Of a stretch of DNA of 30,578 nucleotides, positions 966 through 20,549 are shown piece by piece (the first letter of the stretch is position 1; every line of letters starts with the position of its first letter). Source of the DNA: a virus. The translations under genes and the position numbers were made by a program. The DNA lies in IMG/VR virus record IMGVR_UViG_3300037010_000058, positions 1 to 30,578 of that record; one strand, given 5' to 3'. Below the pieces are notes generated by a model. It saw nothing but the letters and a program-made list of their open reading frames with translations, had not been told where the DNA came from and did not search any database.

Positions 966-1409
966 TTAGAATGGAATATCGTCATCAAAGCTATCAAAGC
1001 TTTGCACCGGCCTAGCCTCTTTTATAATCGGTGAAGTATTCGGAGCACTACTCGGAGCATCTTTGTCAGACTCTTCGCGCTTCCCGCCGAGCATCTGCAT
1101 ATTGTCAGCAATTATCTTTGTGCTGTATTTAGTCACCCCGTCTTTTTCGAACTTGTCAGTTTTCATCTTTCCGCTGATGAATACCTGGCTGCCTTTTTTT
1201 AGCCACTCGCCGCATATTTCTCCAAGCTTATCAAATGCGGTGATGTTTACCCATTCGGTAGATTCTTGTTTTTCGCCGTCCTTACTTTTCCACTGGCTAC
1301 CGACTGCAATACTGAAATTGGTGACAGCCTTGCCATTTGGCATAAAGCGTGTTTCTGGATCAGATCCTAGTCTGCCTATAAATTGACACTGGTTTAAATC
1401 GTTTGACAT
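966..1409 (-). CDS. ssb: single-stranded DNA-binding protein
   Basis: The 147-residue protein has a classic OB-fold SSB domain at residues 1-110: NQCQFIGRLGSDPETRF, AVTNFSIAVG, EWVNITAFDKLGEICGEWLKKG and GSQVFISGKMKT are all diagnostic. A disordered Ser/Pro-rich linker leads to the acidic tip DDDIPF, the conserved SSB tail that recruits partner proteins. It coats single-stranded DNA during replication and recombination. It directly follows yqaJ in the leftward operon, with its ATG behind GGAGGT, so it is expressed with the annealase and exonuclease it works with. Length is normal for a phage SSB and the call is secure. Confidence 0.95.
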   Translation of the reverse strand: MSNDLNQCQFIGRLGSDPETRFMPNGKAVTNFSIAVGSQWKSKDGEKQESTEWVNITAFDKLGEICGEWLKKGSQVFISGKMKTDKFEKDGVTKYSTKIIADNMQMLGGKREESDKDAPSSAPNTSPIIKEARPVQSFDSFDDDIPF

Positions 1410-2993
1410 TTATACTACCTCCTTCATTGATTGAAATTCAGCAGAAATCAACTGTTCCGCATCTTTTTGTGTGGTTAAAAACTCGTTTGAAACTGCTAGG
1501 ATAATGCGGTCACGGACAGACATGAACGGCTTGTGTTCTATCCGAGGTTCTGCCATCGGCTTAAAAGAATCAAGAATTTCCACGCACTTGCCGGCACCTA
1601 CTACTTTTGCAAGCTTATCTGTCTCTGCTTCTACCTTCGCCCGGGCTTTGGTTTCTTCCTCGGCCTGCATCTTTGCTCGCAATGCCTCTTCTTTTGCTGA
1701 TTCCGCTGCCTTGTGCACAGCTATGCGCGATGTAACGACAAGCTGGAAATCATCCATTGGCTTGCTAATTACCTGCTGCATATCAGAAAACAGAAACTTG
1801 TAATCGCCTCCATTGTTAAACCAGTGCTCGTTAATCCATGCCAGCTTTGCGCGAATATCCTTCGCCAGCGCCTCGGCAGCAATCTTTCCATCAGCAAGCG
1901 CCTGGCTGAGTTTTGCATTCTTGCTTTCAACTGTGCGCTGGCTTTTCATTGCAGTCGCAAAGTCTGGGGTGCTCAGAATCAGGCGGATAGGCTCAACTTC
2001 TTTTTGCAGGGCTGCTACATGCTCGGTATATTCAGCTTTTACCTTGTTGATAGCCGCGTCCTTCTCGATCAATTCAAGGCGTGTAACCTCTTTTTCATAA
2101 TCAAGGCCAACTTTGTCAAACTTCTTGGCGTAGAACTCAAGTGTGTTTACGGCTTCACTGACAGATGAAATTTGCGCTATGGTCTTTTTGGCCGTAGCTT
2201 TGCAGTCAGCCGCAGCTTCACGGCTGAATTTGCCGATAGCTTTGCCGTTCTCAATGCTTACTGTTTTAATGTTTGCTTCTGCGTCAGCAATGAACAGGTC
2301 AAACTTTGGCGTTACGTCCAGAAGGTTAGATTTGGCAAGTTCGCCGGTAGCCTGAATAACAACGGATGGCAGGGCCATAATTACATCTGCCTCGATTGCT
2401 TCAACTACTTCCGGTGGCTCGTAGGCTTCAAGGTCTTTAGCGAACTGCGCCCAGCCATTCATAATTCGGCTTTGCATATCTGGGTCTGATCTGTACCACA
2501 TATTAATTTGTTCAATCAGCTCGTCATTTGCATCAAACTTGGATGCCATAAACAAGCATTTATCAGCGCCAGAAATCATAAGCTGCTGTTCCATTTGTGC
2601 GCGGTATTGCTCATGTATCTGGCTTTCAGCAAACGCTTCACGCAAAGAATCATTTAAAGTTTTGTGTTCAAAGCAACTTGAATAATCTTCTGTCAATCCA
2701 TCAAAGCTTGCACTGTACTTTCCTTCGGAAGCAGTAACAGGGAAAAGTTCTTCACCAATTATTTCCTCGGCAATTGGACGGGCTAAAGCTTCAAAACGGT
2801 GGCCGTCAGCAAAACGCTTCTCAGTTGCCGCGTCAAATTCTTGAGTCAGGCCGGTGTAAACTTCATGCAAAAGCTGTGCGCGAGTTTTATATTTTGAAAT
2901 ACCAAGCATAGCCGGTGCATCGCTGGCGTTAAAGTGCTCGGCGCGGTATTTGTGCCAGGCTGGTGTACCCTGCACTAGATTATGAATTTGCAT
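1410..2993 (-). CDS. YqaJ-type viral exonuclease with long C-terminal extension
   Basis: Residues 1 to about 200 form a YqaJ/lambda-exonuclease-type PD-(D/E)XK nuclease. Visible are the N-terminal Q-G-T-P-A-W-H-K-YR motif, E68 in GHRFEA, D98 in ASFDGL and E109-x-K111 in FEHK. It should resect double-strand ends 5'-3' to give single strands for the annealase encoded just upstream, whose stop it overlaps by 14 bases. YqaJ proteins are usually about 200-350 residues; this one has 527. The additional half, about residues 210-480, is helical and charged, ends in a coiled coil (EEALRAKMQAEEETKARAK) and recalls the DUF1351 family found beside phage recombinases. The start at 2993 follows GGGAGA. Nuclease call secure; the extension's role is unknown. 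Confidence 0.88.
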   Translation of the reverse strand: MQIHNLVQGTPAWHKYRAEHFNASDAPAMLGISKYKTRAQLLHEVYTGLTQEFDAATEKRFADGHRFEALARPIAEEIIGEELFPVTASEGKYSASFDGLTEDYSSCFEHKTLNDSLREAFAESQIHEQYRAQMEQQLMISGADKCLFMASKFDANDELIEQINMWYRSDPDMQSRIMNGWAQFAKDLEAYEPPEVVEAIEADVIMALPSVVIQATGELAKSNLLDVTPKFDLFIADAEANIKTVSIENGKAIGKFSREAAADCKATAKKTIAQISSVSEAVNTLEFYAKKFDKVGLDYEKEVTRLELIEKDAAINKVKAEYTEHVAALQKEVEPIRLILSTPDFATAMKSQRTVESKNAKLSQALADGKIAAEALAKDIRAKLAWINEHWFNNGGDYKFLFSDMQQVISKPMDDFQLVVTSRIAVHKAAESAKEEALRAKMQAEEETKARAKVEAETDKLAKVVGAGKCVEILDSFKPMAEPRIEHKPFMSVRDRIILAVSNEFLTTQKDAEQLISAEFQSMKEVV

Positions 2994-3825
2994 TTGTATT
3001 CTCCCAAGATTGCATGGTTGTTTTTTGTGTATCGGTCAGGGCGTACTTTGTGGAAATCATCGCAATAACTTGATCCGCATTGCGTTCGCCTGACTGAATT
3101 AAAGACCTGCGCCCCATTCGTTCAATCTCACCGGATTCTGGATTGATCTTGTCAGCCATCAGATTGACAAATGTTGCTTCATCACATTCTGGCAATCCAG
3201 CAGTCGATTCAATAATCATTGATTCGTCCAGCGCTTTGCCTTCCATTTCATCATTAGTTGGCTGGCTTCCAAACTCGGGGAAAGCTTTGCGCAATGCCTG
3301 CGCTTCTGCGCACTTTGCAATCTGGCCGTAAGGTCGCTTGATCCACATTGTATTGGGCGCAATGCTTTTATCCTTACCGCCCTTGACTGCATAATTTTCT
3401 TTCCAGCGCTCAGTGGCCGAGAATTCTGCAATCGTGCCATTGGGAAGCAGGCGCTTGACCGTGACCTTGCACCATGCCGGATAGGTAATTTTCACGCCGC
3501 CGATATTGTCTTCAACGTCAGCACCATATTCAGGTTCGGTAACGCCGGCATACTCACCAGAGCGCGCAGCTTGTGTGCGGTACAGGCCGATACCTGGCAT
3601 AACTACATCACGCATTTCACTGGCCTTACTATCCCACATTGGTACGAGGTGAACAGGCTTCTGCATTACATCCAGACCAGCGGCAGCGCAGTAATTCATT
3701 ACCATTTTGATTGATGAGTCTTTTGCGCCAACATAGAGAGAATTACGGAGTACATCCATCAACTCCTTTTCGTTCATCTGTAGCGCTGGGAGGGTGTCTT
3801 TTTTTATTACCGATACGTTGCTCAT
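2980..3825 (-). CDS. recT: Bet/RecT-family single-strand annealing protein
   Basis: This 281-residue protein matches the Bet/RecT annealases. The core contains CAAAGLDVMQKPVHLVPMW (about residues 46-64), VVMPGIGLYRTQAARSGEYA (about 74-93), ITYPAWCKVTV, FSATERWKENYAV, MWIKRPYGQIAKCAEAQALR and KAFPEF. It anneals complementary strands exposed by the neighbouring YqaJ exonuclease, giving RecA-independent recombination and end repair of phage DNA. It starts behind AAGGAGA, and its end overlaps the start of the exonuclease gene, which couples the two products. The C-terminal 80 residues are variable, as usual in this family. The call is secure. Confidence 0.93.
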   Translation of the reverse strand: MSNVSVIKKDTLPALQMNEKELMDVLRNSLYVGAKDSSIKMVMNYCAAAGLDVMQKPVHLVPMWDSKASEMRDVVMPGIGLYRTQAARSGEYAGVTEPEYGADVEDNIGGVKITYPAWCKVTVKRLLPNGTIAEFSATERWKENYAVKGGKDKSIAPNTMWIKRPYGQIAKCAEAQALRKAFPEFGSQPTNDEMEGKALDESMIIESTAGLPECDEATFVNLMADKINPESGEIERMGRRSLIQSGERNADQVIAMISTKYALTDTQKTTMQSWENTNANS

Positions 3826-3837
3826 TTGTATTTCTCC

Positions 3838-4026
3838 TTAAAATGTACGTTTCGCCACATCCCAAGCCTGCAATGGATTCTTGCCCAGCTTTATGTGGTA
3901 AACAAAATTAATCATGTGTGTTTTAACTCGTTTGAAAAATGTAACCTTGCCGCGCTTTCTTGTTGGGAATTGCAGTTTCATCATTAAGCTCCGGTATAAG
4001 TAAGTCTTGTCTGCGTGGTCAATCAT
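3838..4026 (-). CDS. small basic hypothetical protein (62 aa)
   Basis: Not recognised. The protein is very basic (TRKRGKVTFFKRVKTH) and ends in GKNPLQAWDVAKRTF, a short helix of a kind seen at the end of several small phage early proteins. The start at 4026 is supported by GGAGG, which lies in the last codons of the preceding 48-aa gene; the two overlap by 8 bases. It sits just upstream of recT in the leftward operon. The charge could mean nucleic-acid binding, but there is no motif to confirm it. Confidence 0.6.
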   Translation of the reverse strand: MIDHADKTYLYRSLMMKLQFPTRKRGKVTFFKRVKTHMINFVYHIKLGKNPLQAWDVAKRTF

Positions 4027-4165
4027 TTGTAACCTCCATTACGTCCTCAAAAAAGTCATACAACATTGCCAAGCCGAAAAGCGCATCTTGATAACTTGCG
4101 GCAAATATTGATGTAACCTTTGCAGGTGTATTTCTGTTGTGTACCAAAGCTGTGTAAATATTCAT
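4019..4165 (-). CDS. first gene of leftward operon, hypothetical (48 aa)
   Basis: I place the start at the ATG at 4165 (MNIYTALVHNRNTPAKV) because GGGGGTG lies just before it. A longer frame beginning at 4225 has no ribosome site and would read through the hairpin at 4183-4200. The 48-residue acidic-tailed protein is unrecognised; residues 22-41 (FAASYQDALFGLAMLYDFFE) form one amphipathic helix. It is the first translated gene after the leftward promoters and overlaps the next gene by 8 bases. Confidence 0.55.
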   Translation of the reverse strand: MNIYTALVHNRNTPAKVTSIFAASYQDALFGLAMLYDFFEDVMEVTND

Positions 4166-4359
4166 AACACCCCCATTTAATCGCGGGTTATGGTTCCCGC
4201 ATTGCCCAAGACTGAAGCTCCCCACCGGCTTGATTCGGCAACAATTTCCAGACTGTTAATCGCGGGGTTTTTTCCCGTTGAGTGCTTGCGCTATCATAGT
4301 CAAAGCTAGTTAATTCATCCCTTCGCACTCCGCCTGGTTGCGGTGAGTTGAGATCAGGT
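4166..4359 (-). promoter_or_regulatory. untranslated leader of the leftward operon with repeated hairpins
   Basis: About 190 bases separate the likely start of transcription near 4359 from the first leftward gene, and I see no credible gene here. On the transcript are two G/C hairpins. One is CGGG/CCCG at 4263-4277 around an A-rich loop; the other is GCGGG/CCCGC at 4183-4200, ending about 10 bases before the GGGGGTG ribosome site of the 48-aa gene. Each is next to a copy of the same 11-mer, TTAATCGCGGG on the plus strand (4177-4187 and 4256-4266). This suggests RNA-level control such as attenuation, antitermination or a protein-binding leader. No boxA-like sequence was found. Confidence 0.45.
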
Positions 4360-4365
4360 GTATCC

Positions 4366-4394
4366 ATTATCGGCAAGTCGAAACAATAAGTCAA
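4366..4394 (-). promoter_or_regulatory. leftward early promoter, proximal
   Basis: Reading leftwards, the -35 box TTGACT (plus-strand 4389-4394) and the -10 box GATAAT (4366-4371) are separated by 17 bases. This is close to the sigma-70 consensus, with transcription expected near 4359. The spacer carries TTTCGA at positions 6-11 and GCC directly before the -10. It should drive the recombination operon. Confidence 0.7.
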
Positions 4395-4399
4395 TAACT

Positions 4400-4428
4400 A
4401 TTTTAAGTAAATCGAAATGTATAGGCAA
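4400..4428 (-). promoter_or_regulatory. leftward early promoter, distal
   Basis: A second leftward sigma-70-like promoter has TTGCCT (4423-4428), a 17-base spacer and TAAAAT (4400-4405), with transcription expected near 4393. Its spacer again has TTTCGA at positions 6-11. Its -35 box lies only 8 bases from the -35 box of the rightward promoter, so both could be covered by one bound protein. Confidence 0.5.
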
Positions 4429-4436
4429 AATAACAC

Positions 4437-4465
4437 TTGCATTTTATTTTCGATACGCCGATAAT
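4437..4465 (+). promoter_or_regulatory. rightward early promoter
   Basis: TTGCAT (4437-4442), a 17-base spacer and GATAAT (4460-4465) form a good sigma-70 promoter. The expected start of transcription, 4472-4473, falls on the ATG of the HTH gene. The spacer contains TTTCGA at positions 6-11, as in both leftward promoters. It should drive the regulator and the replication operon. Confidence 0.65.
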
Positions 4466-4472
4466 TGCGGGT

Positions 4473-4664
4473 ATGAACTGGATAAAACTAATTACTGAAT
4501 TAATGGATTGCAAAATTCGACAGGCTACTATTTCAAGAGAAATAGGTCTTTCGCAGCCTGCAATTGTTGACCTTCTTAAGTCTAAAACGCTCACCGTAAA
4601 GTGGGAGGTTGGCGACAAACTCATCAAGATGCACAAGCGCGTAATGCGTAAGAAAGTCACATAA
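4473..4664 (+). CDS. Cro-like small HTH regulator (63 aa)
   Basis: The protein begins MNWIKLITELMDCKIRQ and contains a helix-turn-helix at about residues 16-38: RQATISREIGLSQPAIVDLL, with the turn G-L-S. The tail is basic (HKRVMRKKVT). Size, HTH and position between divergent early promoters fit a Cro-type DNA-binding regulator, which would act on the promoter array just upstream. I chose the ATG at 4473 over a TTG at 4437 because the latter lies in the -35 box. With transcription expected at 4472-4473 the message would have no leader, as with lambda cI from PRM. It is the only regulator-like gene near this control region. Confidence 0.75.
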   Translation: MNWIKLITELMDCKIRQATISREIGLSQPAIVDLLKSKTLTVKWEVGDKLIKMHKRVMRKKVT

Positions 4665-4673
4665 CAATTTAGT

Positions 4674-4703
4674 TTTACAAAGCGGGATTGAAAATATAAT
4701 CCC
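4674..4703 (+). promoter_or_regulatory. possible second rightward promoter with hairpin
   Basis: TTTACA at 4674-4679 and a perfect TATAAT at 4695-4700 are separated by only 15 bases, which is short for sigma-70. The same stretch holds a GGGATT/AATCCC hairpin (4684-4703), not followed by a T-run. It could be a weak promoter for the replication genes or a pause site; neither is certain. Confidence 0.25.
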
Positions 4704-4722
4704 ACAGCAATTTTAAATAAAT

Positions 4723-4872
4723 ATGGAGTTTCCTTATTTTGTAGTATGTAGCAAGCGCTATACAGGCGTAATGCAGACAGACAGCTCTCTTAGTGTTGAC
4801 TCTGACCGAATCACTAACCTGACTGCCGGAACTGTATCGGGGTCAACACTAAGGGAGTTTGAAGATGAATAG
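4723..4872 (+). CDS. candidate small ORF overlapping the hairpin (49 aa)
   Basis: An open frame from ATG 4723 encodes MEFPYFVVCSKRYTGVMQ and onwards, ending in STLREFEDE. It reads through the whole long hairpin and stops 8 bases after the start of the 40-aa gene (ATGAATAG). No Shine-Dalgarno sequence precedes it, so translation is uncertain. If it is translated, ribosomes would open the hairpin and expose the next ribosome site. The protein has no recognised family. Confidence 0.3.
   Translation: MEFPYFVVCSKRYTGVMQTDSSLSVDSDRITNLTAGTVSGSTLREFEDE
4783..4859 (+). promoter_or_regulatory. 23-bp RNA hairpin masking a ribosome binding site
   Basis: The arms 4783-4805 and 4837-4859 pair over 23 base pairs with four G-U wobbles and no bulge. 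The core, CTTAGTGTTGAC (4789-4800) with GTCAACACTAAG (4842-4853), is a perfect 12-bp inverted repeat. The loop is 31 bases. The 3' arm contains GGGAG (4853-4857), the ribosome site of the gene starting at 4865, so the folded RNA should block its translation. It could be a translational switch, a processing site or a protein target. Confidence 0.65.
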
Positions 4873-4987
4873 TAAGTTCAAAGCAGCAGAAAGATACGCC
4901 AGGTGCATACCTGCAATGAAGAAGCAAAACCGAAAGCAGGGAGTTCTACGCTTACTTTCTAAAATCAAGCTGGCACTGGTGGCGTAA
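4865..4987 (+). CDS. small basic protein (40 aa), hypothetical
   Basis: ATG at 4865 follows GGGAG by 7 bases. The product (MNSKFKAAERYARCIPAMKK, ending LLSKIKLALVA) is strongly basic and probably helical. It ends one base before the GTG start of the DUF1376 replication gene, so translation of the two is probably coupled, which makes the hairpin over its ribosome site a possible control point for replication. I recognise no family. The position between regulator and replication genes is where lambdoid phages often carry small regulatory proteins. Confidence 0.55.
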   Translation: MNSKFKAAERYARCIPAMKKQNRKQGVLRLLSKIKLALVA

Positions 4988-4988
4988 C

Positions 4989-5714
4989 GTGCATTATTAC
5001 AAACGAAATATTGGTGATTATGCAAAGAAGGCTGGCCGACTGTCCATGCTTCAACACGGAGCGTACACGCTCTTGATAGATACGTGCTATGACCGTGAAA
5101 AATTCCCCACGCTAGATGAGGCAATCGAATGGACATGGGCTTCAACTAAAGAAGAAATTGAGGCGGTAGAGTTTGTTCTGCATAAGTTCTATGTGTTTGA
5201 GGGTGGCGTGTACGTACAAAAACGCATTAGTGAAGAAATAGCTGAGTACCACGCTAAGTCCGAAACAAATAAACGAATCGCTAACGAACGTGAAACCAAG
5301 CGTAAAGAAAATAGCACGAAGCGTGAACAAGTCGTTAACGAACCTCCACCTAACCATAAACCAATAACCACTAACCAAGAACCAATAATAAAAGCTCTTG
5401 TTGCCAGCGAAGCCAGCCAACCTTATTGCCCACACGACAAAATCATAGCGCTGTATCACGAACATTTGCCGGCATTGCCTGCCGTTAAGGTTTGGAATGA
5501 TAAACGCAAGCAAGCATTGCAGGCTAGATGGAGAGAAAGAGAATCCCGTCAGAATTTAGATTATTGGAAAGATTTGTTTATTTACGTTTCTGCCAGTGAT
5601 TTTCTTTGTGGCCGCGCCAGCACCTTTCAGGCAACGCTTGAATGGATGGTGAATTCGACTAACTTCGTCAAAGTAATCGAGGGCAACTACGAAAACAGAA
5701 AGGCGGCAGTATGA
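4989..5714 (+). CDS. DUF1376 phage replication initiation protein
   Basis: The N-terminal domain (residues 1 to about 90) is typical DUF1376: HYYKRNIGDYAKKAGRLSML, QHGAYTLLIDTCYDREKFP and the Trp-rich EAIEWTWA. A charged Asn/Lys/Pro linker (about 95-150) follows. The C-terminal segment (NDKRKQALQARWRERESRQN, YWKDLFIYVSASDFLCG, ATLEWMVNSTNFVKVIEGNY) resembles the end of phage O-type and helicase-loader proteins. It probably recognises the origin or loads the DnaB helicase encoded next, with which it overlaps by ATGA. The start is GTG at 4989, because the DUF1376 motif begins there. Confidence 0.85.
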   Translation: MHYYKRNIGDYAKKAGRLSMLQHGAYTLLIDTCYDREKFPTLDEAIEWTWASTKEEIEAVEFVLHKFYVFEGGVYVQKRISEEIAEYHAKSETNKRIANERETKRKENSTKREQVVNEPPPNHKPITTNQEPIIKALVASEASQPYCPHDKIIALYHEHLPALPAVKVWNDKRKQALQARWRERESRQNLDYWKDLFIYVSASDFLCGRASTFQATLEWMVNSTNFVKVIEGNYENRKAAV

Positions 5715-7069
5715 ACTCCTTCACTGAAAACTTCGCAGTACCTCATAGCATTGACTCTGAACAATCTGTTCTTGGTGGCCTCCTGATTGACAATAATTCC
5801 ATTGATCGGATGGGCGACTTGGCGGAGGAAGCATTCTACGCAGAGGCAAACCGCCTGATATTCCGCGCAATCAAAAAACAAGCTTCTGCTGGCAAGTCTT
5901 GGGATGCAATCACAGTTGCCGAAATGCTGGATGTGCATAAAAAGCTTGATGCCGTTGGTGGTCTTGCTTACATCGGCTCACTTGCTCAGAACGTACCTAG
6001 CTCCGCAAACATTGCCCGTTATGCTGGAATTGTTCGAGAGCATTACACCCGCCGTCAGATTATGGCCGCCGCTGCTGAATTGACTGAAATGGTTCAGCAT
6101 AAGGGCGATGTGGCCGTGGCAATGGACAAAGCGCAATCTGCTCTGCTGGCTATTACAGAAACCGTAAAGACTGACGAGCCACGCAGTATCTCGGATATTT
6201 TCAACGAGCATTTTAATGTTCTTGAAAAGCGTATCGAAGGCGGAACAAAGGGAATCCCAACGGGATTAGACGACTTGGATGAAATCCTGAATGGTGGCTG
6301 GCATCGTGGGCAAGTGATTGTTCTTGCTGCAAGGCCGAGCATGGGCAAGACAGCATTGAGCCTGCATCAAGCAATTCATGCCGCTATCAAGGGCTATGGC
6401 GTTCTGTACTTGTCAATGGAAATGGTAGCGAGTGAATTGGCAGATAGAGCTATTGCCGCGCTTGGACGTGTTCACCTTGGTAGCTTGCTTTCTGGAAAAA
6501 TGAAAGAGGAAGAATGGTCAGGTATTACGGCTGCAACTAGCAAGGTTCAAGATATTGCGCTACATGTACTTGATAAATCTGGCCTGAACTTCTTCCAGCT
6601 TGCAACCTTCGCTCGCCGCCACAAGCGCAAACATGGGCTTGATCTGCTGGTGGTTGACTATCTGCAACTAATGGCCGGTGATTCAGACGACAAGCGCCAC
6701 TCTCAGATTGAGGAAATAACACGCAATCTTAAATCGCTGGCGAAAGAACTTGATATTGCAATCATCCTGCTTTCCCAGCTTTCCCGTAAAACCGAAGAAA
6801 CTCGCCGCCCTAAACTCTCGCACCTGCGAGACTCAGGGTCAATTGAGCAAGATGCTGACGTAGTGCTGTTTATTCACCGCGAAGAGGTTGATACGCCTGA
6901 AACAAATTATAAAAATTACGCAGATATTCATGTTGCAAAAAACAGGCAAGGGGCACTTGGGCGTATTGGCGCGACATATATCGGGCATCAAGTACGTTTT
7001 GAAAACTTTACCGGCCAGCTTCCTGATTGGGACGCGAAGCCAGCACAACAAACAAGGGGGTTTAAATGA
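5711..7069 (+). CDS. dnaB: replicative DNA helicase, DnaB family
   Basis: The 452 residues carry both DnaB domains. The N-terminal helical domain starts PHSIDSEQSVLGGLLIDN. The C-terminal RecA-like ATPase has Walker A AARPSMGKT at 206-214, the LYLSMEM motif, Walker B LLVVDYLQLM, the conserved LLSQLSRKTEETRRPKLSHL stretch and RDSGSIEQDADVVLFIHRE. It unwinds DNA 5'-3' at the replication fork as a hexamer. It overlaps the DUF1376 gene by ATGA, giving the initiator-helicase pair of a lambdoid replication module. Length matches bacterial DnaB and the call is secure. Confidence 0.96.
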   Translation: MNSFTENFAVPHSIDSEQSVLGGLLIDNNSIDRMGDLAEEAFYAEANRLIFRAIKKQASAGKSWDAITVAEMLDVHKKLDAVGGLAYIGSLAQNVPSSANIARYAGIVREHYTRRQIMAAAAELTEMVQHKGDVAVAMDKAQSALLAITETVKTDEPRSISDIFNEHFNVLEKRIEGGTKGIPTGLDDLDEILNGGWHRGQVIVLAARPSMGKTALSLHQAIHAAIKGYGVLYLSMEMVASELADRAIAALGRVHLGSLLSGKMKEEEWSGITAATSKVQDIALHVLDKSGLNFFQLATFARRHKRKHGLDLLVVDYLQLMAGDSDDKRHSQIEEITRNLKSLAKELDIAIILLSQLSRKTEETRRPKLSHLRDSGSIEQDADVVLFIHREEVDTPETNYKNYADIHVAKNRQGALGRIGATYIGHQVRFENFTGQLPDWDAKPAQQTRGFK

Positions 7070-20090: not shown

Positions 20091-20549
20091 ATGGCTAAGG
20101 GTAAATATGCAAGAGCTAGTTTAGAAGATCGTTTTAAGGCAAAGATTAAAGTTGTAGATTCAGGTTGTCATGAGTGGCAGTCAACATTGTCCCGTGATGG
20201 TTATGGCAAAGTTTGGATAGTTGATAGGCAAGAACCGGCGCATCGAGTTTCTTATCAATTACACAATGGTGAAATACCAAAAGGATTTTGGATACTTCAT
20301 ACTTGCGATAATCGAAAATGTGTAAATCCTGAACATCTGTATTTAGGTGATGCAAAGCAAAATACAGCGGATAAAATTGCTAGATGTGGATGGCATGGCA
20401 ACATGCAATACGAATTTAAAACGATAGAAAAAATTAGGTTAATGTATAAAACTGGGAATTACAGCCAACAGCAATTAGCTGACATGTTTAAAATACATCA
20501 GACGCAAGTTTCTAAATACGTTAGAAATAAGCAAAGAGTAAATAAATAA
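20091..20549 (+). CDS. HNH homing endonuclease with C-terminal HTH
   Basis: The 152-residue protein has an HNH_3-type catalytic core: AHRVSYQLHNGEIPKGFWIL, then HTCDNRKCVNPEHLYLGDAK, with the metal-binding Cys and His residues of phage homing endonucleases. The C-terminal part has a helix-turn-helix of the NUMOD/resolvase type, YSQQQLADMFKIHQTQVSKY, for target recognition. It cuts a cognate site to spread its own gene between phages. It stands free between the capsid gene and the next structural gene, a usual homing position. It has its own strong ribosome site. Confidence 0.88.
   Translation: MAKGKYARASLEDRFKAKIKVVDSGCHEWQSTLSRDGYGKVWIVDRQEPAHRVSYQLHNGEIPKGFWILHTCDNRKCVNPEHLYLGDAKQNTADKIARCGWHGNMQYEFKTIEKIRLMYKTGNYSQQQLADMFKIHQTQVSKYVRNKQRVNK

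Follow-up and report, generated by a model that had tools for sequence, protein, structure and literature searches.

A putative Cro-type repressor and one candidate two-fold operator per early promoter in a CI-less early region of a podophage-like virus

The DNA analyzed here (the window) is a virus record of 30,578 bases that is probably incomplete, that is, a fragment. Of the named phages, HTVC010P-like pelagiphages and Methylophilales phage Venkman have the terminases closest to its own; the source is likely to be a podophage-like virus and the region described below its divergent early promoter/operator region. Recombination genes run leftward and replication genes rightward from this region. 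The leftward order is a 49-aa ORF (4019..4168, minus strand), which has GGGGGTG 5′ of its ATG and gave no match in family searches, a 62-aa ORF, the RecT single-strand annealing protein (2980..3825, minus strand; PF03837, E 2.4e-23), a RecE-like exonuclease (YqaJ; 1410..2993, minus strand; phrog_7655, E 9.6e-129) and SSB (966..1409, minus strand; PF00436). The rightward operon begins with the gene for a 63-aa helix-turn-helix (HTH) protein (4473..4664, plus strand), followed by a DUF1376 replication/primosomal protein (4989..5714, plus strand; PF07120, E 1.3e-23), a DnaB-like replicative helicase (5711..7069, plus strand; phrog_19, E 1.2e-114) and a NinB-type protein.

There is no CI/C2 repressor gene divergent from the cro-like gene between the two operons: the slot is held by the recombination operon. 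Neither a CI gene nor an integrase gene was found in the 30.6 kb of this probable fragment, and the sole HTH_3 match of the window falls inside an ORF (20091-20549) that we read as encoding an HNH-type protein. The close terminase relatives (L117-L127) either stop short of the switch region or, in those read there, have a different early region. At the left-hand end of the window, 125-499 encodes a protein with weak similarity to Lcl_C / FGE-sulfatase domains, a fold class used by targets of diversity-generating retroelements; no template-like copy for this gene is present in the window.

Three sigma70-like promoters are predicted between the operons. Two point leftward: P1 (4400..4428, minus strand) reads TTGCCT ATACATTTCGATTTACT TAAAAT, with a predicted start at about 4393 and a score of 9/12 in the consensus scan, and P2 (4366..4394, minus strand) reads TTGACT TATTGTTTCGACTTGCC GATAAT, with a predicted start at about 4359 and a score of 10/12. 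The rightward P3 (4437..4465, plus strand; TTGCAT TTTATTTTCGATACGCC GATAAT; predicted start 4472/4473) is a weak consensus match (8/12) that a stricter promoter scan did not list. As a preliminary description of this DNA had noted, all three combine a TTG-type −35 box and a 17-nt spacer with TTTCGA at spacer positions 6-11, all of which can be read directly in the sequence; the inverted 18-mer pair that it reported in P2 and P3 is likewise present, with 15 of 18 positions matching and three differing.

As a word, TTTCGA is not enriched (10 occurrences in the window against 13.4 expected), and the presence of some 6-mer three times in such a stretch is common in shuffled sequence. The register was assessed separately, counting any 6-mer at any offset as long as its distance to the −10 box was the same at every site. 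Three promoter-like sites with a common 6-mer at one offset arose in 0 of 20,000 dinucleotide shuffles of 4300-4472, a figure that serves as a guide and not as a strict probability because the promoter definition was chosen post hoc, with the sites known. When the same test was applied to 173-bp stretches of the window, taken every 50 bp, only two passed; we take these to be the stretches covering the promoter region. The common register of the three promoters is above chance, which confirms the observation.

TTTCGA proves to be half of a larger entity: a 16-bp two-fold element, TWTCGR-N4-YCGAWA, that overlaps each −10 box. The candidate operators over P2 (4368..4383, TATCGGCAAGTCGAAA) and P3 (4448..4463, TTTCGATACGCCGATA) are 16-bp dyads with no mismatch to TWTCGRNNNNYCGAWA. 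The candidate over P1 (4402..4417, TTTAAGTAAATCGAAA) has two mismatches and is alone in pairing one good half-site with one degraded half-site. No further copies of TWTCGR-N4-YCGAWA at one mismatch or fewer occur elsewhere in the 30.6 kb, and the exact operator pair is absent from all other IMG/VR contigs searched. At each promoter the dyad runs four bases into the −10 hexamer, ending with the hexamer's fourth base; a dimer on it would therefore lie across both spacer and −10 box. The centers of the elements lie 34 and 46 bp apart, which means that operator spacing is not in whole helical turns; operator placement follows the promoters.

The protein best placed to bind these sites is the 63-aa HTH protein, the first product of the rightward operon. 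It matches a family of transcriptional regulators (phrog_6831, E 4.6e-9), and a comparison with Pfam HTH_3 gave no match. An AlphaFold2 model has four helices (mean pLDDT 78), with the HTH formed by helices 17-24 and 28-36; in Foldseek the model reached a TM-score (query) of 0.71 to the DNA-binding domain of the P22 c2 repressor, with E-values that were not significant. In tblastn searches the only phage homologue was a protein of Acinetobacter phage Ab11510-phi with 36% identity along almost its full length, a match that is weak database-wide (E 0.1). Profile searches returned credible relatives from Acinetobacter only, and relatives of the 63-aa protein itself were absent from IMG/VR and GTDB contigs. 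The residues of the recognition helix differ between the 63-aa protein and the Acinetobacter Cro proteins, except for SQ and DL. In Ab11510-phi the homologue's gene lies in the cro position and faces that of a C2 repressor, which contains a Peptidase_S24 domain.

Operator-like sequences accompany these homologues. The Ab11510-phi intergenic region contains TATCGGAATTCTGATA, AATCGGTTTGGCTATT and TATCGGAAAACCTATA, and across 19 distinct IMG/VR upstream sequences these cores are largely kept while the flanks vary. The intergenic 16-bp dyads of the family have TATCGG or TATCGC as half-sites: phage TPWB-05, for example, has TATCGC dyads at positions 2405 and 2452 of its locus (L278), with a poorer dyad in between and intervals of about 23-24 bp, and the same dyads lie upstream in relatives from Acinetobacter genomes. 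More distant relatives have TATTCA and TATAAC in the same 16-bp geometry. Read by eye, the Acinetobacter operators overlie the −10 box and spacer of two presumed promoters, PR (TTG-17-TATATT) and PRM (TTGAAA-16-GATAGT). Two distant Cro-family members (L311 and L314) have perfect 16-bp dyads, TATTCATTAGTGAATA and TATAACCTAAGTTATA, 5′ of their HTH ORFs; with their different half-sites they should be useful in working toward a recognition rule.

The geometry is the conserved property. In a comparison of 17 sequences (16 homologues plus the window), which are mutually related and so not independent, the 16-bp T[AT]T...A[AT]A arrangement was present upstream of all 17, whereas no other length in the range 13-20 was present in more than nine. 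A matrix constructed from Acinetobacter phage operators only, and thus without any data from the window, placed the P3 site eighth and the P2 site ninth of 30,563 positions, seven other window positions outranking both perfect sites; the P1 site, a poor dyad, ranked 657th. The prediction that TTTCGA itself would recur at this spacing in related phages failed, a single isolated match (L067) being found. That prediction was too strict, because the operators of the family vary in sequence and keep their geometry. Fixed 16-bp geometry combined with variable inner bases suggests a rule that could serve to predict operators for further small HTH proteins of phages.

These comparisons bear on how the sites may be read. 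The proposal that the 63-aa protein is the regulator gains support from its 36%-identical homologue in cro position and from the dyads of that homologue's region, and we consider it the best candidate binder of the three sites. The broader proposal, that one regulator reads all three, is supported as well, by dyads with the same half-site and spacing in homologues. What falls away is the accompanying suggestion that the motif is no normal two-fold operator and is recognized as direct half-sites, since the sites are 16-bp dyads with the geometry of the sampled Cro family. By homology, position and operator geometry the 63-aa protein appears to be a Cro-type repressor: it is a small HTH protein, and two-fold putative operators lie over the early promoters, the third site being degraded.

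Together the above analyses lead us to consider it likely that the window encodes a CI-less, Cro-type autorepressor with one two-fold operator per early promoter, which shuts off both early operons. Expressed from P3, the 63-aa protein would, as a dimer, occupy one operator at each early promoter; the 16-bp operator has an identical position in each, across spacer and −10 box, and binding would block RNA polymerase. Once accumulated, the protein would shut off its own rightward replication operon as well as the leftward recombination operon, and P1, with one half-site degraded, would be expected to be the least repressed. The HTH mRNA is probably leaderless, judging from the position of the P3 −10 box alone, because the predicted start (4472/4473) coincides with the ATG at 4473. 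Given that no CI/C2 gene lies between the operons, the arrangement suggests a one-repressor early shut-off circuit and not a two-repressor lysogeny switch.

An alternative is that the sites are those of a repressor of CI type, encoded off the record or by a resident prophage, with the HTH protein as a second reader, the arrangement of a complete lambdoid switch. A CI gene could sit in the part missing from this probable fragment; moreover, the dyads of the homologues lie between cro and a C2/CI gene and are presumably common to both proteins. However, the place that CI takes in the homologues is here taken directly by the recombination operon, and 30.6 kb of sequence holds neither CI nor integrase, so we judge this unlikely. 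Rather less probable is the direct reading of single TTTCGA half-sites, whether by the HTH protein or by another regulator: although TTTCGA is the sole element identical in all three sites, and P1 has just one good half, two of the three have a mirror second half at N4, as do the 16-bp dyads that accompany the homologous Cro proteins. Recent promoter duplication combined with chance, and no regulator at all, is favored by the finding that about 8% of shuffles of the AT-rich region yield a 13/16 repeat pair, but it is made very improbable by three sites in register, by their two-fold symmetry and by the recurrence of the half-site next to homologous genes elsewhere. The notion that P2 and P3 are flagellar sigma28-type promoters, whose likeness would reflect sigma-factor recognition and not an operator, draws on their common GCCGATAA, the sigma28 −10 consensus, and was rejected as having next to no probability: P1 lacks the element, the −35 matches are just 3/8 (P2) and 5/8 (P3) by our own count, a TTG-type −35 box at 17 nt is found in all three promoters, and CCGATA is accounted for by the operator half-site.

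The Cro-type autorepressor that we favor can be set beside several known systems. In lambda a small HTH repressor, Cro, acts on divergent early promoters through the two-fold operators of OR and OL, and the proposed circuit is likened to the action of Cro on the early operators. Lambda differs in having CI and 17-bp operators in clustered threes, where the window has no CI and one 16-bp operator per promoter. The arrangement falls short of a complete lambdoid lysogeny switch, as the divergent CI/C2 gene was sought at its place and is absent. As a reduced form of the classic switch of lambda type it is largely ordinary, and its novelty is modest.

The nearest parallels are the Acinetobacter phages. 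The Ab11510-phi / Ab105-2phi group (Vieuvirus) resembles the window in having a homologue of the HTH protein, 66 aa long, at the cro position, in its 16-bp dyads (half-site TATCGG) over the −10 box and spacer of presumed divergent promoters and in the replication-type genes downstream. In contrast to the window it has a temperate layout, with C2 opposite cro, and its three operators are clustered about 23-24 bp apart between these two genes, instead of lying 34 and 46 bp apart with one at each promoter. The CI/transcriptional-regulator region of TPWB-05 encodes an HTH protein 45% identical to that of Ab11510-phi and also contains 16-bp dyads; unlike the window it has a CI-like repressor, and its half-site, TATCGC, ends in C.

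The CI-less arrangement is not unique, being found also in Shewanella phage X14 (Bocovirus) and in a further locus, L002. In X14 no CI is annotated between the operons, recombination genes run leftward, and a rightward HTH protein is followed by a DUF1376-type replication protein; its intergenic region contains GTGTTGA three times, twice in the form TCAACAC, and the sequences of both the HTH protein and the repeats differ from those of the window. With an HTH gene opposite recombination genes and no CI, X14 (L336, 4693-4784) is another phage in which a Cro-type switch may operate on its own. L002 has a 70-aa ORF, HTH-like in our reading (Pfam gave no match), and a DUF1376 protein opposite RecT. 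Obolenskvirus AbP2 was considered as a parallel and set aside: the replication protein is in common, but no divergent HTH gene is annotated there. The phiCbK regulator TgrL, an XRE protein that is expressed early and acts mainly as a repressor, has been studied mainly on host promoters (PMC10688885); the window protein would likewise be an early phage regulator of this kind, its putative targets being the phage's own early promoters.

A more specific, and tentative, view is that a lambdoid switch stripped of CI has been retained in a lineage of virulent podophages, with a single protein as the timer: a leaderless, self-limiting Cro and one operator at a constant position in each of the three early promoters, graded by the quality of the half-sites, would set the order in which the operons close; we regard this as possible but somewhat doubtful. 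The region offers a compact and testable case of a lone Cro-type repressor ending early gene expression, and of how a lambdoid module can persist after the loss of CI.

Several features of possible RNA structure lie close to the promoters; no Rfam family matched in the window. The leader of the leftward operon, the fold of which is no more stable than that of shuffled sequence, contains an exact repeat of TTAATCGCGGG at 4177-4187 and 4256-4266, each copy followed by a short stretch ending in TTCCCG; the copies possibly form paired small hairpins. Just past the stop codon of the HTH gene is an inverted repeat, GGGATT-N8-AATCCC (4682-4704), which is predicted to pair and has no T run. Further along the rightward operon, the predicted fold of 4660-4880 is 4.5 standard deviations more stable than those of shuffled sequence, and a very stable RNA hairpin is predicted at 4783-4857, 5′ of a 40-aa ORF at 4865. 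As its 3′ arm includes the Shine-Dalgarno-like AAGGGAG, this hairpin could mask translation initiation.
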